The notes under the pieces: generated by a model | Database searches by the model: none | Told to the model about the DNA's origin: nothing | What the model saw: only the letters and a program-made list of their open reading frames with translations | Program-made: the position numbers and the translations under genes | Assembly (NCBI RefSeq): GCF_036370855.1 | Contig: NC_088132.1 | Span: 65,076,841-65,140,840 of the forward strand | Direction of reading: 5' to 3' | Source of the DNA: Dromaius novaehollandiae | Lineage: Eukaryota; Chordata; Aves; Casuariiformes; Dromaiidae | DNA length: 64,000 nucleotides | In this document: piece after piece, positions 8,605 through 51,700 of the stretch | Numbering within the stretch: position 1 is the stretch's first letter | Layout: every line of letters begins with the position of its first letter

Positions 8605-8779
8605 GGCGGCCGCAGCGCTCTGCTCCAACGCCGCCGCCGGCCAGGCCCGACGGGACGGGGACGGGCTCGGCCGGCCAGCACCGCCCTGCCCCGCCCAAGC
8701 GGCGCTGGTGCCGCCCGGCCGCACCGCCCCCGCCGCCGCCCTCAAATAGCCGCCGCCGCCGTCGGGCCGCGCCGCCGCC

Positions 8780-10041
8780 ATGGTCACGGCGGCGGGCGGC
8801 GGCGGCGGCGACACGGGCGGGCGGCGGCGGGGCCCCGGCAGCTGCCCGCGGCCCCCGGCCAAGCGGCGGCGGGCGGCGGCGGGGGCGCCGGGGCCGGAGC
8901 CGGAGCCGGAGCCGGGGCCGGAGGGCCCGCTGGAGCTGCAGGCCTTCCGCGACTACGGGGAGAGCTGGTACCGCTCCCGCAAGCGGCTGGAGAGCCGCTT
9001 CCAGCCGCGGGAGCCGCTCGCCCGGCAGCCGCAGGTGGTGGTGGTGGTGGTGGTGGTGGGGCGGGAGGCGGCGGGCGGCGGGGACCGGCGCGCTGAGCCC
9101 TCGGTGCCGCAGGTGACGGCGGAGGCGCGCTGCAGGCTCGTCAGCTGGCTCATCCCCGTGCACCGGCACCTCGGCGTCTCCTTCGAGGCCCTCTGCCTCG
9201 CCGTCAACATCCTCGACCGCTTCCTCGCCACCACCCCCGTGGCCGCCGACTGCTTCCAGCTCCTGGGGGTGACGGCGCTGCTCATCGCCTGCAAGCAGGT
9301 ACCGCCCCGGCCCCGGCCCCCGCCCCCGCCCCGGCCCCGGCGGCGCGCCCGGCTCCGCTCCGCGCCGCCCGGGGGGCAGCGGGGGCAGCCGGGGGGCCGG
9401 GCGCGCCTGCCCCCGCTGCTGGATTTGGCGCAGCCCGCCCGCAACGTGCCCCGCAGGTGGAGGTGCACCCGCCGCGGGTGCGGGAGCTGCTCGCCCTCTG
9501 CTGCGACGCCTTCAGCCGCCAGCAGCTCTGCAGCCTCGAGTGCCTCGTGCTGCACAGGCTGCAGTTCGGCCTGGCGGCGCCCACCGTCAGCTGCTTCCTG
9601 GAGCACTTCACGCAGCTGCGCGTCGCCGCCCGCGGGGGCGACGCGGCGGAGGCCCGCGACGCCCGCAGCCTGGCCCGCGGCGTCGCCGAGCTCAGCCTGG
9701 CCGACTACGCCTTCACGCGGTACGCGCCCTCGCTGCTGGCCGCCGCCGCGCTGGGGCTGGCCGACCGGCTGCTGCGGCACCGGGCGCCGCTGGACCTGCG
9801 CCTCAGCGGCCACCCGCGGCGGCTGCTGCGGGGCTGCATGGGCGAGCTGCGGCTCCTGGTGGCGCTGAACGGCGAGTCGCTGCCCCTCGTGCTGCCCCCC
9901 GGCCTCTCCGAGCGGTGCTCGCGGCTGCGCGGCCCCGACGCCCCGACGCCGCGGTGCCGGCCGCGGGCCGCCGCCGGGGAGGCGGCGCCGGCCGCGGGCT
10001 CCCGCCCGGCCGCGGCCGCGCCGGGTCGCGGCGCTCCCTAG
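8780..10041 (+). CDS. CCNO: CCNO, cyclin O (complete, 3 exons)
   Basis: Atypical cyclin needed for deuterosome-dependent centriole amplification in multiciliated cells; its loss causes a reduced-cilia disease in humans. Exons 8780-9034, 9113-9298 and 9457-10041 (stop TAG) join in phase 0 to ~341 residues (human 350). Residues 1-60 are Gly/Arg/Pro/Ala-rich with a (PE)n stretch. The conserved part starts at [12 protein letters not shown] and continues with [10 protein letters not shown]. The cyclin box includes [72 protein letters not shown] and [17 protein letters not shown]. Conserved cyclin-O blocks match human at the same positions. Intron 1 is only 78 nt, in frame and stop-free (see finding); intron 2 is 158 nt. 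The ATG at 8780 lies in GCCGCCATGG, a near-perfect Kozak context. MCIDAS follows in the same orientation ~1.4 kb downstream. Confidence 0.97.
9035..9112 (+). repeat. CCNO intron 1: 78-nt in-frame intron beginning with (GTG)8
   Basis: Between LARQPQ and VTAEARC, where the human protein is contiguous, there are 78 nt that begin with eight GTG triplets and end in CCGCAG. Length is 26 codons and no stop occurs in frame. Family alignment says it is removed, but retention would insert 26 residues (a Val run, then a Gly/Arg-rich part). Confidence 0.75.
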
Positions 10042-11447: not shown

Positions 11448-14377
11448 ATGCAGCAGGGCGGCCGCAGGGCCTTCGGCAGCATCTGCCCCAACACGGTGCA
11501 GGACCTGCCCGCCCGCCTCGCCAAGAAGCCGGCCCGGCTCGGCGGCGCCCCCCCGGGCGGCGGCGGCGGCGGCGGCGGCGGCGGGGCGGCGGGCCCCCCC
11601 CCGGCGGCGCCGGGCCCCCGCTCGCCCCCGGCCCGGCCGCGGCCCCGCCGCCCCGGCCCCGCCGCCCCGTCGCCGCCGCGGCCCCCAGCGCTCGCCCCCG
11701 GCGACTGGCAGGACGTGGCGGCGACCACCTCCGTCCTCCCCGCCGCCGCGCAGCAGGTAACCCCGCGCCGGGAGCAGGAGCGGGGCCGGGCCGCCCCGTC
11801 CGGGCAGCGCCGCCGGCGGTGGGGCCGAGCCCCGGCGCTGCCGATGGGCGCTGCCCGCGCCCGGCCTCGGGCCTCCCGGCCGTGCAGTGGGCACAGGTGC
11901 GGTCCCGCGGCTCTTCGGCGGTAGCCCGGGCTGGCGAGGCGCCTTGCGGCGGTGCTGGGGCCCTTTCTGGGAGACGCAGGCAGAGACCCTTCCTTCAGCA
12001 CCGCCCCGAGAGCCGCCGCCCGGGGCCGGGCGCTGCGCCGGGGCTGCCGGCGGGCAGCTGCGCTGCTGCGAGGGGCAAGAGGCGTTTCTGAACCGGCGCC
12101 CGGGGCGGCCTGCGTGGCCCCGGGGTGTCCGTGCGGGCAGGGCAGGAGCAGTCACGGCAGCTCCTCACGGCCCGGGGCGTCGCGGCCGTGCGCACGGTGG
12201 CCCAGGCCAAGGCTGAGAGCGGCAGAGGCCACGGGCGGCGTAAGGGTTATGTCCAGCCCCGTCCAACACGGGCCAAGCCACGGCGTGCAGGCCCGGCAGG
12301 CCTGAGCCCTGGGCCCTGCTCACAGGCACGTTTCATCCACCTCTTGCAGGGTTACTGCTCGCAGGATGAGCCCGACTTTGATTTTCAGGAGTTCAGAGAT
12401 GCTGTGGATGATTTCATATCTGGCAAGTATGTTTTTGCTTACATGAGCCAAACATGCCTGTGCCTGCGCATCAGAAGTCCTGCTGTGTCCAGGTGCCGCA
12501 TTCGGTCGCCTCCCATGCTTTTTTGTTTTGTTTTGGGGTTTTGGATGCCCATGCACCTGCACATCTGTTTAACCCTGGGACAGTCCGTAGGGCAGCTCAC
12601 CTCCGTGGTCCTTTGCAGAGGGACCTGGGCTGGCACTTAGCTCTTCACATCCCTCTGCTCTGCAGCCAACCGCAGAGAAGTAAAATGAGCTTCACACGAG
12701 TTCAGGGCACGTGGCTGCCGCGGTGGAGTGACAGCATGCCTGCACTAACGACCGGGGGAGATGCTCGGTAGAGAGACTGGGGGGGGGGGGGGGGAAGAGG
12801 ACGTGGGAACCTTTTCTACCCTAATGCCTGGGAGTTTTCCTTCTAGACACATCCACCTTAATGCCACCGCCACTGGACTCTGCCGACTTTGATTTCTCGC
12901 TTGGCGAGGACGTGGCCTTCAGCCCCTGTGGCCTGCAGCCGGGGAGCAGCGCCCCGCCGCAGCTGGCCCTGCAGAGCCTGCCTCCCCCCGAGCTGTACTG
13001 GAGCGATGTGGCGGACCAGCACGAGAAGGCGCTGGGAGATGCCCTGGAGGAAAACAGCCAGGTCAGGACTCGGAAGTGCTCGCCCAGGGCCCGGAGCAGG
13101 TTTCTCTCCCCAGCACCCTGCCCTGGTGGCTGCGTGGCCCTGGTGTGCGGTGTCCCCCCGTGCCGGGGGCGGTGGGGCTGTCCTGGACCTCCCTGTCCCT
13201 GCTGGTCCTTCGCAGCTCCAGGAGACCCTCACGCGGAGGCAGGAAGAGCTCACGTCGCTGAGGGAGAGCAATGTGCAGCTGAAGGAGCTGGCGAGCCAGG
13301 CCAGGCAGCTGGCCGCCGTGCTCGATGTGAGTGCTGCCGGCCCGGCCTGGCTGCCCCACGGCCCGGCCGGCCCCTCGGGGGACCCCTCAGGCTGGGCCGT
13401 GGGGGGGCAGGCAGGACGGGGCGGTGTGGGGTGGTGGGGCTGTGTGGTGCGGGGTGGTACGGGATTGGGGCGGTGTGGGTGTGCAAAGGGGTGGACAGCA
13501 GGATGGGACGGGGAGGTGCAGTGTGGGGTGGGATGGGGCAGGCGGAAGGGGCTGTGCTGGACGGGGCGGTGCAGGACAGGACAGCGTGGGACGGGGTGAG
13601 CAGGAGGGGCAGCGCGAGGTGGTGCGGGATGGGGTGGTGCAGGCTGGGGTGGTGCGGTGTGGGGCAGTGCAGGGTGGGACAGGGCTGTGTGGATCAGGGC
13701 GGTGTGGGACAGAAGAGGATGGGGCGGTGCGGGATAGGGCGGTATGGTGTGGGTCAGGGCGGTGTGGTGTGGGTCAGGGTGGTGTGGGTCAGGGCAGTGT
13801 GGGCCGGGACGGGGCAGTGTGGGATAGGAGAGGACGGGGTGGTGTGGGTCAGGGTGGTGTGGGATAGGAGAGGACGGGGTGGTGTGGGTCAGGGTGGTGT
13901 GGGCCGGGCCGGTGCGGGACAGGGAGGGCAGCACGGGCCGGGCCGGGTGCGGCGCGGTGCGGCGGGGTGCTGCTGCGCACCCGCGGAGGTGTCACTGTCT
14001 CCCGCCGGCAGAAGCTGATGCAGCCGCAGTGCCCCGACGGGGCGGCCCTTCCTCCTCCTCCTCCTCCTCCTGCCGCCGGGGAGGCCGCCGGCGTGGACAC
14101 CATGCTGCGGGAGGTGTCGGAGAGGTGCCGCGCCGCCCTGCGCAGCCTCGGCGGCGGCCCGGAGCCCAAGCGGCAGCGGCGGGATGCAGAGCTGCACGGC
14201 GGTGGCGGCGGCGGCAGCGAGGTGTTGGAGGCGCTGGAGGCGCTGGAGGCGGGCGGCTGCCTGCGGGCAGCGCTGGGGGAGGCGGGCGGCATCCGCACGC
14301 TGGCCTTCCCGCAGGGCAGCGCCTTCACCCTGCGCACGGCCGGCGGCGGGTACCGCTTCCGCTGGGTGCCGCGCTGA
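11448..14377 (+). CDS. MCIDAS: MCIDAS, multicilin (complete, 5 exons)
   Basis: Geminin-family coiled-coil coactivator that forms a complex with E2F4/5 and DP1 and switches on centriole amplification and FOXJ1/RFX programmes in post-mitotic progenitors. Exons 11448-11756, 12350-12422, 12847-13061, 13216-13326 and 14012-14377 join to ~357 residues (human 385). Features in order: N-terminal GRRAFGSICPN; a long Gly/Pro/Arg low-complexity part in exon 1; DFDFQEFRDAVDDFIS (exon 2), matching the family's acidic FxLQxFRDxVDDLIS box; PPPELYWSDVADQHEKALGDALEENSQ; the coiled coil in exon 4 (LTRRQEELTSLRESNVQLKELASQ); and the C-terminal TIRT domain, IRTLAFPQGSAFTLRT...YRFRWVP. Exon 5 also carries a (CCT)n-encoded Pro run. 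Intron 2 uses a GC donor (12423-12424). Intron 4 is mostly a G-rich minisatellite. In the conserved order downstream of CCNO. Confidence 0.97.
12779..12794 (+). repeat. Poly-G run in MCIDAS intron 2
   Basis: About 16 consecutive G close to the acceptor of the GC-AG intron. Simple repeat, prone to length error in assembly. Confidence 0.85.
13400..13965 (+). repeat. G-rich minisatellite filling MCIDAS intron 4
   Basis: Degenerate tandem units based on GTGTGGGTCAGGGCGGT and GGGATGGGGCGGTGC occupy most of the 685-nt intron. A higher-order unit of about 40 bp (GGATAGGAGAGGACGGGG plus GGTGTGGGTCAGGGTGGT) is repeated nearly exactly at about 13826-13905. The sense strand is G-rich with almost no runs of C, so the minus strand gives a false Pro/His-rich ORF. 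Confidence 0.85.
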
Positions 14378-36100: not shown

Positions 36101-38999
36101 CTGGTGCCAGCAGGCACAAACTGCACAGTTGCCGCATACTAACTTCTGAGGGGAATATTTTTACAGTGAGCTTCAAAAATTCACTAGAGTGAACACTGGA
36201 AGCCCAGGGTTACAGTATGTAGGTGAAACAACTGAGCAACTGACTGCATAGACTCCTTAATGTGGAGCCTAAAATGAGTTTGCAGTGAGACAGAAATGAA
36301 GCCACTCAATCAAGATGCCCTTTTAATCTCACTTGGAAAAAACTTTAGTAAAATGCTGGAAGCATTTCAGAAGCTATAAGCTCAGCTGTGCACAGCTTTT
36401 CTGAAGGAAACCTCTTCTGTTTAAAATTCAGTTACAGTTTCTAAGTGACAACAGAACTCTTACCTATTACATCATTTCCAAAACATGAGGCACTTCAAGG
36501 GAGGAAGTGAGCTTTAAAGGTATCCTTGATCTTATAATACCTAGCTAATAATCCAGCACATCATTCTTAACAAATACAAACAATTCAGACTTCCCCACGG
36601 CACTTCTGCTTATCTCGGAATTTTCTTTACCATTGACTTCATTTCAGGATCCAGTGATTTTAAGGCTACTAACAAATAGATAATATCTTGGCATATATTC
36701 TATTTTCCAGTCACAGTGTTCAGAAGGAGCTCTTAGAGGAAAACCTCCAAATGGACACGTTAATCTCCTACAGATCTTTCCTGAGAACTCACTCATGAGG
36801 TGTGCATGCATGAGTTAAAAGTTCATGCCCTGGAATCACTGCTTGTAACACTAATTCTGCTAGATCACATTATTTACTCTTTAATGCCTTGCTCCGTTAA
36901 TCTCATCTTCTTTTCTCCTCTTGGATTCTTAGACACACAGTCAAGCTATCATTAAGAGGCCTAACAAGTTACCATGTGTCACCCAGCCTCTGGTAATCGC
37001 CAGTGTGTTGCTCTTGGCCCATAGCTAATTTATTTAGCTCAGGCTGCAAAGGCAGCAATTTACAGTAGAAGATGAGCTAAGTCACCTTTGCTGTGAGAAA
37101 GATCATGCATAGGGAAAGCTATCAAGACTTTTGTGTGTGTTAGCCCATGATTCATTCATCAAATGTGTGTATAGTGGACTAACAACAAATTCTCAAAGAA
37201 ACTTAGAGTTGCTTCCACAGTACAAATACATCGCAATAGTATCCGCAAATGGCAGTAACAGTATCACATTCAACAGTGGATTTTTGGTAACATGTAATTG
37301 GTTTCTAGAAAAAGCAGTTTTACAATTTCCCATTAAATTATAACTATCCCTTTTTTATAAAACTGGATGCACATTTATATTTCTCTTTGAGGCATGAATA
37401 TATAAATAATCAACATTTTGTGTTATTGTTACAAAAATATTTTAAATGAATTTGCTTTTGGAGAACTGCTGAATAATAATTATTTTGGATTAAGGGTGTT
37501 GTGACAGAATAACCCTTTTTAATGTATTTCTTAAACATTTTCTCCAGGGAGGTTTAACTAATGCTAATTCTAATTCACTCAGACACAGTCTTGTTGACTT
37601 TGAAAGACTTCTGGCTTTTATTCTAGCTTACCACCACCGAGTTCTGACTTGGAGCCCTTTCCTCCCGCTATGAGACAAACTAGTCTCCTGTAAAATTGCA
37701 TTCTAACAGTTTTGCTCAGCTGAAAGGTACTTTTCAGTGTGAGAAAAAGCATCATTAGAGGCCCAAACACCAGTCTGATAGATAACAGTTAAATACATTT
37801 TGCATGGGTATTGCCAATGCATGGAGCACTAAAATCAGTTGGTTTTGCAGTGCATGCCAGCATCTGCTGCTAGGCAGTTATTCTGCAGAGTAACACTAGT
37901 TGACAACGTTTGCTGAACGTTATTGTTGTATGAGGAATTCTTATTCAGTTAAATGAACATCTGAAACGTTGCAAACAATCCTTTGTGATGGAATTCTTCC
38001 AATGCTTAGTGTAATGTTTGTTTTATAGAAAGTATTAAAATGATCTTGCATGACTCAAATGTTTTGTATTGAGTGTCCTTAGCTATTTGTCCTTACAAAC
38101 ACATAGCAAGAAAATAAAACTGTACTTTTGAAATAAAGTTTCATTTTGATTCAGCAAAACAGTCATATCAAGTTTTGCCTAGAACTAAGGCGTAAGTATT
38201 TTCCTCTGTTGTCTCACTTCCATGGTGTCCTTTTCTAGATGTTGCATATGCAACCATAGAAATAGAATTGACTAGGAAAGTGGGACTTCATATGAGAAGA
38301 TTTTTGCAGGAGACATTTTCTATTGTCAAATAATACTTTTCTAACAAGAAATTCAGAAAAATCTCTTTCCTTCTTGAGGAGAAAAAAAATTGTAAGAAAA
38401 TGAAGGAAATGTTGGGAACCACATGTATTTTCAAAAGTGACATACTTTTTACTCAGCGAAAATAACACTTCTAATGTTGATTAATAAGAGCCAAGAGCTG
38501 GAACAAGGGCAAATGGGATCTCTTATATATCGGGTTTCTCAGCTTTTGCCAGTTGAAAAAGCAAGTGGTGTAACTCCAAAATTCTGACACTATTACAAAG
38601 GCTGAAAAGGGTTTTTTTCTTAACTGATTTTGACTAGAATATGGAAGGTATATGTACTGACAATTATTTTCTATCTCCAGTCTTTTTGGATTTAACTAAA
38701 CCCTATCTGCCAACAAAAACATTCTCGACTCTATTACCACCGAATTTATGCTCAAACTTTCTGAGCTGAAATGAGCGAATAAGGGCTATGTACAGTTCCC
38801 CTGCGAGCTATACTCCACAAAACGAGCGTATGAGCAGTTCACCTGCCAGGATAAAATGATCCTTCGCTTTTCCTCCTACACACTTCTGTCTTTATCGTAT
38901 TGAACTAAACAGTGACAGGTGTTTTTCCATGAGTTGGGTTGCTCCCGGTGCTGTTTATTTTAAGTTTTGCTCTGCTTTGCTTTCGGGAAGCCTAGCTCA

Positions 39000-39700
39000 A
39001 AGTGACAGAGCGAGGTTCGGTGCAAAAGGCAACGTGCGGCCCCGCACCCTCGGTGCGCCCCCGCTCCAGCTCTCGGGACCGCCGGCCGCTGTCCCCGGAG
39101 ACGCGCCAGGGCCGGGGGGGGCCCGGGCCCCGCCGGGCTGCCACCTGCCGGGGCCGGGCCATGCCTCCCGCCGCGGGGGAAGGGGGCCCTCCCCGCCTTC
39201 CCGCCTCCCCACAGCCGTTGGGCGCCCCGCGCGCCGCGCCGCGCTCCTTTGCCGCCTCCCGCCGCCCGCCGGCGCTGCTCGGCGCCGCCGCGCGCCCCAT
39301 GTCCCGCCGCCGCCGCGCGCCCGGGCGCGCCGGGTCCCGCCGGCGGGGCGGCAGCGCGGGGCGGGCAGCGCCGCGGCGCCGCCTAGCGACCCTGCGAAGG
39401 ACCCCCCGCGGCGCGGCCAATCAGCGCCCGCGGCGGGGGGTTCCCGCCTCGGCAGCCGCGCGTACCGGCGCTTTAAAGGGCGGCGGCGGCAGCAGCGGGG
39501 AGCGGGCGGTTGGCTGGTGCCGCCTTCGCGGGCCGCAGCGGCTCGCTGCTGCCTGCGCGCTGCCTCGGCTATAAGTTGCCGTCTGTGTCGGTCGCCGTGC
39601 ACGTAGGTTGCCTCCCCCATAGGTTACCGTGCCCATAGGTTACCGTGCCCATAGGTCGCCTTCCTGCGAGGTTGTCTCGCCCTAGGGGCCTGCGTGTAGG
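39000..39700 (+). promoter_or_regulatory. CDC20B/miR-449 CpG-island promoter
   Basis: CpG island with an ordered promoter core: CCAAT box at 39417-39421 (GGCCAATCAGCG, an NF-Y-type match), E2F-like TTCCCGCC at 39441-39448, and TATA-like TTTAAA at 39472-39477, spaced as expected for a start near 39500-39510. These elements read on + toward CDC20B. E2F input fits multicilin control of CDC20B and miR-449. The start site itself is inferred. Confidence 0.6.
39559..39686 (+). repeat. Eight 16-bp tandem repeats with RFX half-site-like cores
   Basis: Units start at 39559, 39575, 39591, 39607, 39623, 39639, 39655 and 39671 with exactly 16-bp spacing. Their first six bases are GCTGCC, GTTGCC, GTCGCC, GTTGCC, GTTACC, GTTACC, GTCGCC and GTTGTC. 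The two central units are identical (GTTACCGTGCCCATAG). GTTGCC/GTTACC is the half-site of the RFX X-box used by ciliary genes. The array lies just downstream of the predicted transcription start, so it may be in the first exon or leader. Confidence 0.85.
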
Positions 39701-39747
39701 TGAGGCCCCCCGTTGGAGGCAGTGGGGTCGGTAGCCCCCGGGCAGGA

Positions 39748-42700
39748 TTGGAGTGGGAAGGGGAAAAACGTGCCTCGAGGAAGATGAGGGGGGTGAGGGT
39801 TGGCTGTGAGGCACTGTGCTGGGGTTTGCCCTCAGCCGGTGCCCTGCGGGGATGGGCAGTTGATCAGTGCTTTCCAGGATGGTCCTGGCTGCCATCTTCT
39901 GCCCCGGCCCTGGGGATGTGCTGGGGATCGCAGCTAGGAGCTTGGCCTCCGTGGGAGAGCCATGGCTGGCAATAACGTCTTGCCAGCGGCTGGGCTCGGC
40001 TGGTGGGTGATGTAGGGTGAAGAAACTGCTGCTCCAGTGAGAGTCACACATTTATTAAGTGTTGTGCCTCTGTATCTCTTTAAAGGAAAAAGTCATGAGA
40101 ACACTTGGAAAAGACCTTAAATGGAGCAGAAAGCAAAACCTGCAGAAAGCAATTAAGGTAAGTGCATGCATAGACATTCGCTCTTCTCTGCATGTGTTAC
40201 ACTTAGAGTTCCCCTTTTATACTTATTTTGAGAGGCAGAGGAGGTGAACTTAGAATATCTAAGTACCTTTGAATAGACAAATGATATTTTTCCTCTCCTG
40301 TTAATCCTTATTGCACTTGCTTAGCTACAGGCTATAAAATGTTAGAAAAACTTGCAAGTTATGGCAAAACGGCATCTTTCAGATGCCGTGGCATTCCCTC
40401 CTTTTGGCACTAGAGGGAGTACTTGCTATTTAAAATCCAGAGTTACCTGATTTGATAGAAGTCACTGGATGGATGTAGGAAGCAGTCTGTTTGTTGGCAC
40501 TGCAAGCTGGCTTTTCCATATTTAGAGGGTGGTAAGAGCAAAAGAACTAATGACAAACTTGCATATACAGTAGGTACACAGATGAATACCTGTTGATCAC
40601 CAGCAATATGCTTGACAGTAAACAAGATGCAAAATACAGGCAGCTCTTGCCTTAAGGAGTTGACGAGTATCACTCGTTCTGGTGAGATTCAAATACGCTG
40701 ATGGATGGAGTGGGAGGTAAAGATGTAAAAGGAAATAGACGTATTGAAAATGCTGAAGCAGGAGATAAGCAGCGCACCCTTAAATGCAACCACAATACAG
40801 AAATGTAGTCACCAGCATGCTGAGAATGTCACTTCCGTGTAAATATTTTATGTAAGTAACCCCGTGGGAAAAGCTATTTTGTTAAACTGAGTAATGACTG
40901 GAGTCTACAATAGGAAAAATCTGGTGGGGATAGGGGTGGAGAGGGAGCTAATGGCCAAAACTCAACAGAATGTATCAGTCTGGCAGTGCATGTTAGCTGG
41001 CTGTTTCTGATATGTGAACAGCTGCTAAGTGCACGCCAGACCGTTTCATTCAAAAGCGTCGTGGAAGACTCAGAAGTTGCCTTCTCTTACTGTGGAGCAA
41101 GCAGAAGTCAATTAGCCAGTGCTTTCCTGTAGCTGCTAACAGCAGCCCTAGGGCAAGTAAATGTTTTAGTGTCTTGTTTTATTTTGAGAATTCAGGACTG
41201 GTGAGATAAGATTTAAGTGATTCAGGACCTGATTTTAAGAAGCAAAGGTTTCAAATTTGGTACTCATTCACTTTGATACAAAGCATCTAACTCTGGCTGT
41301 CTTCAAGCATGACTTCAAACGGCTTTGCATCAGAATGGATGTTGCAGGTAAAATTTTACCTCCATACAGCCTAAATCAATGGGGTTGAATCTTGGGATCT
41401 TTATGCATCCTCCATTTTATGACTGTAAATGGAGGTGCAGTGTGGCACATCACCTGAAGGTAAGTTGCACTATGGAGTAACCAAGTATAACTTCAAAATA
41501 ACCTAAAATTGACCAAACTGAGTTAAATTCAGGGTTCATCGAGCCCAAGATCCTGAATCCAGTGATGACCATAAATCAAGGAGGAAGAGGAATAAAATAA
41601 AGTGTATATGATACTAATTAACCTGGTGGTGATACATGGCATGCTGGTGCTGATACAACTAAGGCAAGAAACTGGCTGCAACACTTTACAGTTCCTTGAT
41701 GACAGTCTTGGATCTGATTCTAGTCACGTTTCACATGGACTTTATACTATTACTTTAGTTCAAGTCTGTTACTGAATCAGAGTTTTTTCTGTGCCATTTA
41801 TTTTGTGAAAATGTTCACTGTTTCAAGTGGAATAGCTATGAAACATGAACCTCAAGAGGTGAGCAATACTGAATTCAGGTAGAAAATAGAAGAGACCTCT
41901 CAAATTCAGGCCCATGATATTTCGTGGGAGATCTCATTATGTATGAACTCTGTGTCTGGTAGGCAGTGTACTGTTAGCTGGCTGCTCTGTTTGAATGTAG
42001 CAGTCACTAATGCACTGTCACCTGATGCAGGGCCGGCTCATCACTGTTTGAAGGCAGTTACCCTGGAAAATGTCAGGCATCTCTATTCCAGGAATATGGG
42101 TGGTGCATCTGTGTGTGATGGGATGGCAGTGTATGTTAGCTGGTTGAAATTCTGACATCAGCTAACATGCAGCTGCTGTCCTGCTCCACATACCTCTATC
42201 AACAAACTGCAGCGCTACTAGTTTTCTTTGAGGATTTTTTTTTTTCCTTCTGTCAGGCTCGTATTCGGTATTATAGCTGTATCTCATATTCCTGTTATCC
42301 AAAGAATTGAAAGAAAATTTTTAGTTATCTAGACTGTTTTTCATCTGCTCTTAGACACACAAGTAGTAGGAAGCTTATAAACACTTGAAATAGGTAAATA
42401 ATTTAAACAGGTCTCAAACAATTTTAAGCTTTCTTAAAGAAGCAGAGTTTAAAAATTTTTAACTTTTATGACTTTTAAGATTTTTTTATCTAAACTTTTA
42501 TATAATTGGCAAAAATAAATTTTATTTTAAACTGATCAATTAGCAACTGGCTTAAAATGACATATTCTACTAACAGCCTGAATGCTATATCAGTGTGCTT
42601 AAAAACTGCATGCAGTCTTACCAGGATACCCAGTTTTAACGGGATATAATTTGTACCTTGGAAGGATAAAGGCTGGAAGCATGTTGATCCTTTTGACTCA

Positions 42701-45700
42701 TATTACACTGTAAGCTTTTATCAAACACACTGCCACAGGTAACATGGTGGTACTTTTAGTTTCATCTTGACACTTATTTACAGAATGCAGAGAAAACTGT
42801 TGTTATAGGAGCGCCCAGACAAAGTAAGGAATGTATCCCATTCTTGCAAACCCTCCAAGGAAGGTCTCTTCAGGAAGGAAATAGCAATTTTTGTGAAGGT
42901 CTGCAAAATTAGGCTGATCCTAGTGTTGTGTGTGGTGATTAGGCAGTGTAGTTAGTTAGCTGCTCTTTATACACCAGCAACTAACTACACTACCACATTA
43001 GCACATCACTGCATCACTGTTGAGACAAGAATATAAGGAATGTGATTATAAATATCTCATCAGATCTTTAGTTGGTGTGGGGACCTATGCCTAGCTCCCC
43101 TGGTGAAAGGAGCTGTGCTAGTTTATGCAAACCAAGTGAATGAAGGGTATACAAATAAACTTAATTGTTTGACACAATTAGGCAGATAAGCCAACTGATT
43201 TCTAAAGAACTACTAATGTATGTATTGCATACTCAAGTAAAAGTTTCAGGTTTGGGCCCCATGTGAATTTATGCTTCTCTTACACTGCTAAATGGCATCA
43301 TCTTAACCTTTGGAACATTCATGGATGGTATCAAAAGGAGAACAGTGGGACCACAGATATGGTTCTGAAACTCTCTGCTTTATCTTTACTGCTGCAGGTC
43401 ATCCTGTGGGAGGAGAATTCTGTGGTTTCAGCTCAGACTAAGCTGAGTGAAATGAGAATTGGTGGAAAAGAAGGGTTTCTAATTCACTAGAAAATTCTTT
43501 GATCAAGGATTTGATCAAAAATGAGCCTAAGAGGGGAGGGAAAGAAATTTCTCACGAACCAGAGGTTCTCTGCAGCTTGTCAGCTCCACGCTGGAACTGT
43601 GTTCTTCCAGGTTGCACTTAGGCATAAATAAAAGAACCTTAGAATCATCCACTGCATTGAGTTCAGTGAAATCAATTTCTAAGAGTGGCCACAGCTCCTG
43701 GGATTTGTGGCTCTGGAGGCAGTTCTGCTTGCTCTAAGGGCACATTCCTTGGACTGAGGACCAGGGTAAACAGAGACCTAGAACAAGCAAAGCAGGAGAA
43801 AGAAGCATGAACCAGTCACGAAACTGGAATAAAAATCAGATCTCCAGACTGTCAAGATAAGAAGCCAAAATCTGGGCAGAAATCCAGTCAGAAGTGGGAG
43901 CAGGAACGAGGACAAGAAGCAGGGCGAGAGCAGGAAAACGAGGTAGTGCTGAGGTGTGAAGCATGTGTGGTGGTATCGGATTAGAGCCACAGACTGCAAT
44001 AAGATGAGCTATAAGGTGATGTTGCTGCAGTCAGGGCTGAGATGAAACACTTCTACAGAGTCCTTCATCCTGAGTGACTCTGCTCTAGGGATGTGTCCAG
44101 ATGTGAAGATAACGTTTATTGCTTCTTTGCAAATAGAGAAATCGGGGAGCTGGGACTACAGATCACGCATACAGGCTGTTTCAGAGCAACAGGAACTGTG
44201 TCCAGCGACGTAAATAAATCATGGCCAGAGTTCAAAATCTGTCTGTGCAACTGTTTGCACACTTGATGTGATTTTTGGCTTCATCATACAGTGACTGAGG
44301 CAGGTTAGGTTATATCATGGGCCATAAATTGTTCTCTGTAGGGAGTACGAGAAATGCCACCCTCTTACGTGAGAGAAGAGAATCTAACTATGTGAACATG
44401 ACAAAAAGGCTTCTGGCCTTATTTACTAGTATAAATGTTGTTTTGGAAGTCATCTCTGGACGTCTCAGTTCCTCAAACATGGCACATATTCACTGAACCA
44501 TTGATGTATGTGCTCAGCAAGCAAGCATTTTCTGATAGAACTTGAACTAACTGGGATATGTCCAATCACTGACTCTATTTGGTGTGTATTAGTATATTTA
44601 GAATATTTGCACTCCTAGGTAAAATTTTGGAACAAGAAGCTGATAGTTAAATAATATCTGTTGGAGGCAATGAGGATATGTCAGATTGAAGGAGTGAAGG
44701 ATGCATTAGATTTTTCTGGGTATGCTCAAACTGCAGTGCAAATGTATGGAGAAGTCTTATGAAGTTACAGGTGTTGCTGTAAGGGTGAAATGTAAATGTG
44801 AACCAAAATACACACAAAGCAGAGAAGGAAACATTTTTGTCACTTTTTCTTTCCCTTTTAATAATAATCTCATTTTCTATGTACAGTTTATTTTAGGACC
44901 AGGTTTACAGCTTCACAATTCAGTAAATGTCCTCTGTTAATATTGCAAAGCTGATATCTTCAGTGACATTTGTTTCTAAAAACTCTGATACGATATCTCT
45001 GGACTCCATATCATTCAGTCAGGGCAGTTGTGTGTTAATGGCATATCAAAACCTACTTGTTACTGGTAGATGGGAAACAAAACTCCTTGGTTGATAAGTT
45101 ATTCAGTATTTGCATAGGTCCTCTTGTTTTTAGCCATATTCCTGCTGGTGACAACTGTGACTAGCCAGGGTCAGCAATGTAAAGAAACATTCAGAAACTT
45201 TATGCGAATTGCAGGTCTAGTCCTGTGAGGTACTGAGTGCCTTGCCATTCTCGATGACCTCAGTGGTGCTCAAGGAGGAGCACCATTGCAGGAGCAAATC
45301 CAACATTAATTGACACAGTGGAGCTGAAAATACTAACACCAAAGAGAAGTAAAATCACCTGATGGTTTAGCTTCTAGCAGCATTTCCCAGGAATGTACTA
45401 AGGTTGTGCACACATGCCGTTGAATGGATTCACAGACTGAATGGCTTTTTCAGAGATCTTCCCTTTTTTTCATGATGATCTGTCTGATCAAGGATGCTAC
45501 TTCTGGCTTGATAGTTCCTATGGGTTCTTCAGGTCTCCAGAATTTTACTACTTTACCTTCGGGGTTGACAAGATATTTCCAGAAATTCCATCTAGGCTCT
45601 TTCTTTGAAGAATCTGCAAGAGTGGCATCAGATCATTTTAATGACTCGCTTAGGCTTGTGATTGTTTAATTACCCAGCAGTGGCTGGTTAACTATTTGTT

Positions 45701-48700: not shown

Positions 48701-51700
48701 CTTCAGGGAAATAAAGTTAGAATACTTAGAAAGAAACTAAAGATGGCATAGAGATTTCAATCAAGTCTTAAAGTGGCATATTCCACATTCTCAGTGGTTC
48801 TTTCTGGAGGGTTAAACTTATCTCTCTGACCATAATTTCAGTAAATGGAGTAAGAATGATAACAGCTGAAGGTATTTGCTTTTTTAAGACCACCTGTTTT
48901 GAAAATCCTGTAAATGGATAAACTGTTTCTAATTACAGCTTCGCTTAAAGATAAGCATGCAAAAAGCATATATTTAAGACAGGCACTAAAATCATATTTG
49001 TTACATCAGCTTCAAAAATTCAACACAACATACTGCCCTTTTTGACTAATATAGTTAATGCACAAATTCCATTGTTAACCCTATGGATTAAAAGAAATTC
49101 TCTTTCTTTATTGTAATTTATTTAATAATCTTTATTTGTAATTCATCCTTAATTATTGAGGCATGCCTAAGTAAAACTTCCCTCTAGCTTATGTTTTATG
49201 TTTTAAAGAACAGGAATTTAGCACAAACTCTATCATAAATTCCCATAACCAAACTTTTTTGCCACATACAAATGGATATAGCTTTCAGTAAAGATTCAAG
49301 ACAAAGATATAATGAAGTCGTAACTTACTTTCCCTCTGTACTTTTCCAAGGAAACAATCCTTCCTCGTGAATCCTTGACTTCAAAAGAATAAAAATCTTT
49401 GATTTTAGGTTTAAAAAATTTGAGTTGCAATAGGCAGAGAACTGCAGTACACAAAACCATCGACAGAAAAACAACAAAGACCCTGGCTTTGGGCACGGAA
49501 TATTTTAAAGGATAAGTAGTTGTGAGAGGCTCCATTTTCAAAAACTTTGGAGAGGAGCCTGGGCAGGCCTGGAATGTGAAGGAGGAGCTGAAATATGAAA
49601 CTCGCAGCTATGCTGCTCCGGCTGAAAAGAACAAGCTGCTCATTTTGTTCCTGCTGTAGAAGTGACCGTTTCCTTTTGCATTGCCTGTGCTGGACTTCAG
49701 AACACTTAGTAAATTACAGAAATGGCTCCCACTAGGAAAAAAGAAACAAGTGGAAAGTGTGTTCCCATCACCTAAGGATATTGATTGCTTTATTCGACTG
49801 AGTTATGTGGAATGCTTCAGTGTTTGCACATTGTCTTGAGAACTGTCTGGGACCTCTTTTGTGGGTCTGTAAGTGCAGCTCTAGCACATCCCCTGGGCCC
49901 CTATGTTATCAGAGAGGACAAGCAGTTTGGGGCCAGCTCTTTGGGTAGAAAGAGGGCAGTATGGCAGAACCTGCCCTGTGCACTGCCTCTCTTCTGCCTG
50001 TTATCAGCTGCTGTGCGATTACAGGTAACATCTGTGGATTTGTCTGTAAGACTCTTTTACAGCATTATGGGTAAAGTAAGATCCTTGTTTGTGGGCTGGT
50101 GTGAGGGAAGAAAATCAAATGATTTTTTTCAACAGGGAAAGGGAGTGTAGAACTCATGATAGAAAATGGGCTTTTTCTTAATGCCACTGTCTAACTACCT
50201 GCTACCTCTGCTGAGATGAGAAGATGAAGGTTCTGTACAAGAGAAGAAGGAATTGGCTGAGATTCTCAGCCTAAGCCAGACATCTCTCTCCAGTGGCGTT
50301 TTAATGAGGAAATTGAAAGACACTCTGAACTTTAAAGCCGTGCAAGTCTGGCATCTTCTCTATTTGCCCTGTTTTTTTTGTTCCCACCCTCTCCCCCAAG
50401 ACTTTTCCCCTATGCTAGAGTAATTGCTGTCTTTGCCTGTTGCTTCTTGGTATCCAAAGGGACTTTTCAGACATAAACATGTAGTGACAGCACAGTTACT
50501 GAAAGAACAGATTTTTTGTCTATAGTTGGTCATATCTTCCCTTTTCCTTTCTGACCCTTTGCTTTTCCCTCTCTTTCTCTGTCACTTCTCTTGATTTTCA
50601 GTATTTGTATGAGTGTTTTCTCTGATATGGGCATATGTGAGGCTTGATCTCTGACTGACGATGAGGCCTAAAACCATGGTGTTTCAGAGGTGGGGACAGA
50701 ACAGGCATGGACATCTGTGCTAAAATGAACAAAGCTACAGTCAAAAAGCTGTATGACAAATTCTGCTGACTTCAAAAACCATTTAAAAGTCAAATTTGAA
50801 TGTGTTTGATATTATCCAGGCTCTTCCAATTCAAATTTTGATACATTTTTATGTTTAGAGGTTTTTTGCACACTTGTTTGCTTAGAGATTGCCTGTATGA
50901 ATGGATTTAAAAGTAAGAAATGTAAATCTATCATTTAATTTTAATTAATATAGTATGCCTTAATATATGCATGTGAAGGATAAGAAGGTGATCAGGAGTA
51001 GTCAGCAGGGATTCACAAAGGGGAAATCATGCTTAACCAATCTGATAGCCTTCTACGATGGGATGACTGGCCGGGTAGATGAGGGAAAAGCAGTGGATGA
51101 TGCCTACTTGGCTTCAGTAAGGCTTCTGGCACTGTCTCCCATGACATCCTCATAGGCAAGCTCAGGAAGTGTGGAATAGATGAGCAGACAGTGAAGTGGA
51201 TTGAGAACTGGCTGAAAGGTGGAGCTCAGAGGGTTGTGATCATCAGTGCAGAGTCTAGTTGGAGGCCTGTAGATAGCGGTGTCCCCCAGGGGTCAATACT
51301 GGGCCCAGTATCATTCAGCTTATTCATCAGTGACCTGGATGAAGGGGCAGAAGGCACCTGCAGCAAGTTAGCAGATGATACTAAACTGGGAGGGGTGGCT
51401 GGTACCCCAGAGGGCTGTGCTGCCATTCAGAGAGACCTCGACAGGCTGGAGAGATGGGTAAAGAGGAACCTCATGAAGTTCACCAAAGACAAGTGCAGAG
51501 TCCTGCACCTAGGGAGCAATAACCCCATGCACCAGTACAGGCTGGGGGCTGGAAAGCAGCTCTGTGGAGATGGACCTGAAAGTCCCGGTGGACAGGCTGA
51601 CCATGAGCCAGCAGTGTGCCCTTGTGGCCAGGAAGGCCAATGGTATCCTGGGCTGCATTAGGAAGAGTGTTGCCAGCAGGTTGAGGGAGGTGATCCTCCC

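Follow-up and report, generated by a model that had tools for sequence, protein, structure and literature searches.

Introduction

The X-boxes of ciliary genes, which are of the GTTGCCATGGCAAC type and belong to dimer-forming RFX proteins, are described as inverted repeats (PMC5838959; PMC2375033). RFX5 and RFX7 are reported to work without dimerisation (PMC4498915) and to recognise the non-palindromic sequence CCTAGCAACA, often near CCAAT boxes (PMC11344851). CDC20B is a gene of the multiciliation programme that is switched on by GEMC1 and MCIDAS (PMC10023806); it carries the miR-449 microRNAs in its second intron, and MCIDAS and CCNO belong to the same locus (PMC6220262). Minisatellites are repeats of another kind, and a survey of chicken repeats, in which this class has units of 11-60 bp, counts 12,310 such arrays (PMC4992247).

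Here we describe a tandem array of 16-bp units in the emu, Dromaius novaehollandiae, within a stretch of 64,000 nucleotides (contig NC_088132.1, positions 65,076,841 to 65,140,840 of the forward strand; hereafter the window, whose own numbering is used throughout). An initial annotation had interpreted these units as RFX half-sites at the CDC20B/miR-449 promoter. We consider, with a probability of roughly three in four, that the array is a short degenerate minisatellite in the non-coding, GC-rich first exon or 5' untranslated region (5'UTR) of CDC20B, and that its hexamers are not working X-boxes.

Results and Discussion

Structure of the array

The eight units at an exact 16-bp spacing that the initial annotation had reported were recovered at precisely the same coordinates:

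39559..39686, + strand: tandem array of eight 16-bp units (seven distinct sequences), each a GYYRYC hexamer followed by a 10-bp linker, identified by Tandem Repeats Finder (TRF), register read-out and shuffles

Starting at 39559 and proceeding in exact 16-bp steps, the unit-opening hexamers are GCTGCC, GTTGCC, GTCGCC, GTTGCC, GTTACC, GTTACC, GTCGCC and GTTGTC. All eight fit GYYRYC, seven fit GYYRCC, six fit GTYRCC and four fit the strict half-site GTTRCC. The units run head to tail on the + strand, so that they form direct repeats and not an inverted X-box, as had been recognised from the start, and their 16-bp length falls within the 11-60-bp range of tandemly repeated minisatellite units. 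The unit at 39623 is repeated without change at 39639, and all other pairs agree at 6-12 of 16 bases; because of this pattern, we regard the array as a decaying repeat. TRF independently detected a period of 16 at 39616-39656 (100% matches) and a period of 32 at 39595-39656 (80%). The self-identity of the array is 0.63 at lag 16, with peaks of 0.59-0.64 at lags 16, 32, 48 and 64, against an expected 0.28.

We then compared the longest chain of GYYRYC hexamers at a constant pitch (7-60) with dinucleotide shuffles. The observed chain of eight was never approached: among 2000 shuffles of the surrounding 1000 bp the longest chain was three, reached in 70, and four of 60 shuffles of the whole window reached this same maximum. 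Apart from sub-chains of the array, neither strand of the window contains another chain of three or more GTNRCC hexamers at a constant pitch of 7-100, and GTNRCC is no commoner in the window than expected (160 against 177).

The array resembles vertebrate minisatellites in its 16-bp unit, its head-to-tail arrangement and its identical pair in mid-array with more diverged copies around it. It differs from them in having only eight copies, in its position in a predicted 5'UTR exon and in a somewhat more conserved core. It would be missing from the chicken survey, because that survey takes arrays of at least 50 units (PMC4992247). Further degenerate GC-rich arrays occur in the window, such as that at 13736-13902 (period 20, 8.6 copies, 67% matches by TRF). 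The region 13618-13903 is a cluster of degenerate G-rich minisatellites with periods of 15, 20, 30 and 40, and it overlaps the end of an open frame with a weak Geminin match.

We propose that the 16-bp unit was multiplied by tandem duplication, through slippage or unequal exchange, within the non-coding first exon of CDC20B. The resulting array would lie just downstream of the GC-rich promoter and would be transcribed as about two thirds of exon 1, and the GTTRCC-like hexamers would reflect the phase of the repeat unit and not working X-boxes. Such an array would presumably be tolerated because it introduces neither an ATG nor a strong donor, and because its RNA fold is not unusual. If it is only a minisatellite, then it has little import beyond marking a spot where the length of the 5'UTR could vary. 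We also considered the possibility that an assembly error added or collapsed copies, given that two adjacent units are identical. However, such an error would not create the seven distinct sequences found among the eight units, so that the doubt is confined to how many copies the identical pair represents, and we regard this explanation as extremely improbable.

Comparison with RFX binding sites

If RFX proteins, or a non-dimerising member of the RFX5/7 type, bound the 16-bp spaced GTTRCC-like half-sites, then they could help to activate CDC20B and miR-449. The occurrence of GTYRCC in six of eight units at a single pitch and the conservation of the hexamer above the linker speak for this; four of eight units carry the GTTRCC half-site, and the gene, as with ciliary-gene X-boxes, is one of the multiciliation programme. 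However, the half-sites of the array recur in the same orientation every 16 bp and lack an inverted partner, whereas X-boxes are inverted (PMC5838959; PMC2375033). In addition, steps of 16 bp would turn neighbouring half-sites to roughly opposite sides of the helix.

We scanned both strands with seven X-box consensuses (from PMC2375033), ranging from the loosest, RYNNYY N1-3 RRNRAC, to RTNRCC N1-3 RGYAAC, with a spacer of 0 added. No pair of inverted half-sites with a spacer of 0-3 bp matched any of the seven in or overlapping the array. Given that only about 0.08 matches to RYYNYY N1-3 RRNRAC are expected by chance in such an array, this result means that the array contains no X-box and is no richer than chance, not that it is depleted. 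A relaxed scan for half-site pairs found at best 9/12 inside the array. The 14-bp palindrome GTTGCCATGGCAAC, with up to three mismatches, is missing from all 64 kb (3.58 expected), though the locus is one of ciliation genes. The RFX5/7 motif CCTAGCAACA (PMC11344851), with up to two mismatches, has 46 matches in the window, fewer than the 73.7 expected, and none of them is inside the array. On the relaxed pairs, the palindrome, the seven consensuses and the RFX5/7 motif, we rejected the array as a set of X-boxes. The initial reading of the hexamers as RFX sites therefore finds no counterpart in these scans, the strict half-site being present in only half of the units; this reading of the array is weak, and RFX action through it seems unlikely.

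In the open-licence literature of PubMed Central we found nothing on RFX direct repeats or half-site monomers, and a single paper on RFX half-sites. Matches for CDC20B with X-box, and for miR-449 with RFX and X-box, look unrelated by their titles and the starts of their abstracts, and no title among the matches listed for the miR-449/CDC20B promoter mentions such an array.

Conservation of the core and the linker

If the unit were neutral, then all of its 16 columns would be expected to decay alike. Several observations weigh against a neutral repeat. Mean pairwise identity is 0.77 in the six core columns and 0.47 in the ten linker columns, and column permutation gave p = 0.021 with eight units and 0.010 with seven, in which one of the identical pair was dropped (0.017 and 0.012 on rerunning). 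In the core all six departures from the consensus are transitions, whereas the linker has 11 transitions and 16 transversions (Fisher p = 0.018); with seven units, transitions make up five of five in the core and 11 of 26 in the linker (p = 0.043). At the level of the transcript, the units pair with U1 at -3.7 kcal/mol, somewhat more strongly than the -2.4 (sd 0.56) of 500 single-base shuffles. Among these, the figures for the core are the only ones hinting that the hexamer could be more than the phase of a repeat.

These p values are nominal, because the hexamer phase was picked after the sequence had been seen. When the width of the block was left free between 4 and 10, the permutation values weakened to 0.096 (eight units) and 0.048 (seven), and the best block was the hexamer plus the preceding base. 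The same script at width 6 gave p = 0.39 or more for six other arrays, taken from 30 other TRF rows. These six serve poorly as controls: the copy number is just three to five in four of them, and several are gapped or overlapping.

The conserved GYYRYC core would be explained if the 16-bp unit were read by some other DNA-binding protein, such as one of the zinc-finger type. The hint of constraint is independent of which factor reads the unit, but it is also post hoc and nominal, and we think this explanation highly improbable. A broader proposal is that the GYYRYC direct repeats in the first exon of CDC20B have been selected as a multi-site platform, for an RFX monomer or some other factor, which in multiciliated cells would jointly tune CDC20B and the miR-449 cluster; to us this appears distinctly unlikely. 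Were the core truly under selection, a cilia gene would be using RFX-like half-sites in a new manner, and the number of repeat copies would be linked to the output of a gene encoding a centriole protein as well as a microRNA cluster.

Predicted promoter and first exon

The sequence around the array contains the following elements, listed in order of position:

39378..39391, + strand: degenerate X-box-like element GCCGCCTAGCGACC, statistically weak
39417..39421, + strand: CCAAT box; as many in 18.8% of 1000 shuffles of 39151-39500
39441..39447, + strand: E2F-type site TTCCCGC, with further E2F-type sites at 39198 and 39249
39472..39477, + strand: TTTAAA, a TATA-like box; as many in 5 of 1000 shuffles of 39151-39500 (0.5%)
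39500..39699 (left end approximate), + strand: predicted non-coding exon 1, without ATG in 39480-39700 and with stops in all three frames
39700..39705, + strand: predicted donor TAG/GTGAGG, the top-scoring GT between 39480 and exon 2 (5.8 bits)
40086..40157, + strand: predicted exon 2, with its first ATG at 40095 and the donor AAG/GTAAGT at 40158 (score 8.5)

We place the putative transcript start near 39502, its sole basis being the TTTAAA at 39472, some 30 bp earlier. The array would then extend from about +57 to near +185. The initial annotation had located it 80-200 bp after the start; it does follow the predicted start, but lies somewhat nearer to it. It would account for 128 of the about 200 bases of the predicted exon 1, or about two thirds. 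When the donor at 39700 is joined to 40086, the first ATG is that at 40095, and an in-frame stop stands at the end of exon 1. With no ATG and with stops in all three frames, a coding repeat was rejected.

Upstream of the predicted start, GC content is 77-88% in five 200-bp windows starting at 39000-39400. The region 39151-39500 contains three E2F-type sites where 0.83 are expected, and as many occur in 4.1% of 1000 shuffles. Over 39378-39477 the elements stand in a compact order, namely the X-box-like GCCGCCTAGCGACC, CCAAT (39417), TTCCCGC (39441) and TTTAAA (39472), which may resemble that of cell-cycle promoters. Promoter activity most likely comes from this upstream block, through the E2F-type sites, the CCAAT box and TTTAAA, and perhaps the X-box-like element at 39378. 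In humans, E2F1 and E2F4 activate the CDC20B promoter (PMC6220262). A bacterial promoter scan returned nothing and is not relevant to vertebrate DNA.

Within 39250-39558 the X-box scan gave a single match, GCCGCCTAGCGAC at 39378, in agreement with three of the seven consensuses. As many matches to RYYNYY N1-3 RRNRAC occur in 7.5% of shuffles of 39250-39558, and as many to GYYRCC N0-3 RGYRAC in 2.4% of shuffles of 39151-39500; for the latter pattern, the 39378 site is the sole + strand match in the window. Inside this element, CCTAGCGACC at 39382 differs from CCTAGCAACA at two of ten positions and precedes the CCAAT box by 25 bases, which resembles an RFX5/RFX7 site with a nearby CCAAT; it lies outside the array, however, and such matches are fewer in the window than expected by chance. 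Because it holds CCTAGCGACC at this distance from CCAAT, we consider the 39378 element preferable to the array as an RFX candidate, although it is itself weak. The relaxed RFX scan found 18 sites of at least 10/12 in the window, among them GGTGCAAAAGGCAAC at 39019 (10/12). A palindromic sequence, GTTGCATATGCAAC, is found at 38241-38254, about 1.2 kb before the predicted start, and scores 10/12 in the same scan.

Splicing and RNA structure

It was also possible that the array acts in the transcript, where repeated weak U1-pairing borders (TAG/GT) close to the start would help to recruit the U1 small nuclear ribonucleoprotein (snRNP) or tune the use of the donor at 39700. TAG precedes and GT opens four of the eight units, only 13 bases lie between the last unit and the donor GT at 39700, and the units pair with U1 more strongly than shuffles do, by about 2.3 sd. 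However, the seven unit borders with GT score only -8.5 to -2.6, against 5.8 at 39700 and 8.5 at 40158 (in bits, computed from donor frequencies), and the best GT within the array, at 39603 (1.8), is off the borders. The units pair with U1 far more weakly than the 39700 donor does (on average -3.7 against -10.2 kcal/mol). Thus, the unit borders provide neither the MAG/GTRAGT-like sequence nor the strong U1 pairing of a splice donor array, which we rejected on these values, and an action through U1 is very unlikely. The real-looking donor that the initial annotation had seen near the end of the array was supported at 39700; the donor likeness that it had ascribed to the TAG/GT borders was not. 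The predicted RNA fold of 39505-39698 is no stronger than that of shuffles (z = -0.73).

The locus

The assignment of this region to CDC20B and miR-449 in the initial annotation agrees with the neighbouring sequences. We searched 20 open frames, hand-picked from the open reading frame list, against Pfam: three were above the cut-off (two cyclin frames and one reverse transcriptase), a Geminin match fell below it, and 16 gave nothing. Upstream of the array, the cyclin frames lie within 8750-10038 (Cyclin_N, E = 2.8e-16; Cyclin_C, E = 4.8e-10) and the weak Geminin match in 12825-14015 (E = 0.0039, under Pfam's cut-off); these would fit CCNO and MCIDAS, respectively. The peptide of predicted exon 2 may be similar to the N-terminus of human CDC20B. 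Downstream of this exon, Rfam gave no match at its gathering threshold, and a relaxed search revealed four hairpins:

40967-41052, + strand: miR-449/34-type hairpin
41947-42033, + strand: miR-449/34-type hairpin
42110-42192, + strand: miR-449/34-type hairpin
42934-43002, + strand: miR-449/34-type hairpin

Their E-values range from 9.8e-8 to 9.6e-12, yet they fall short of Rfam's gathering scores by 1.6 to 14.9 bits. Given the cyclin and weak Geminin frames upstream, and the CDC20B-like exon and miR-449-type hairpins downstream, this is very probably the multiciliation locus. At the hairpin at 42934-43002, the opposite strand also scores 39.2 bits. Further downstream of predicted exon 2, an open frame of 186 amino acids at 51101-51658 carries a reverse transcriptase domain (Pfam RVT_1, E = 3.8e-14) and is likely a retroelement remnant.
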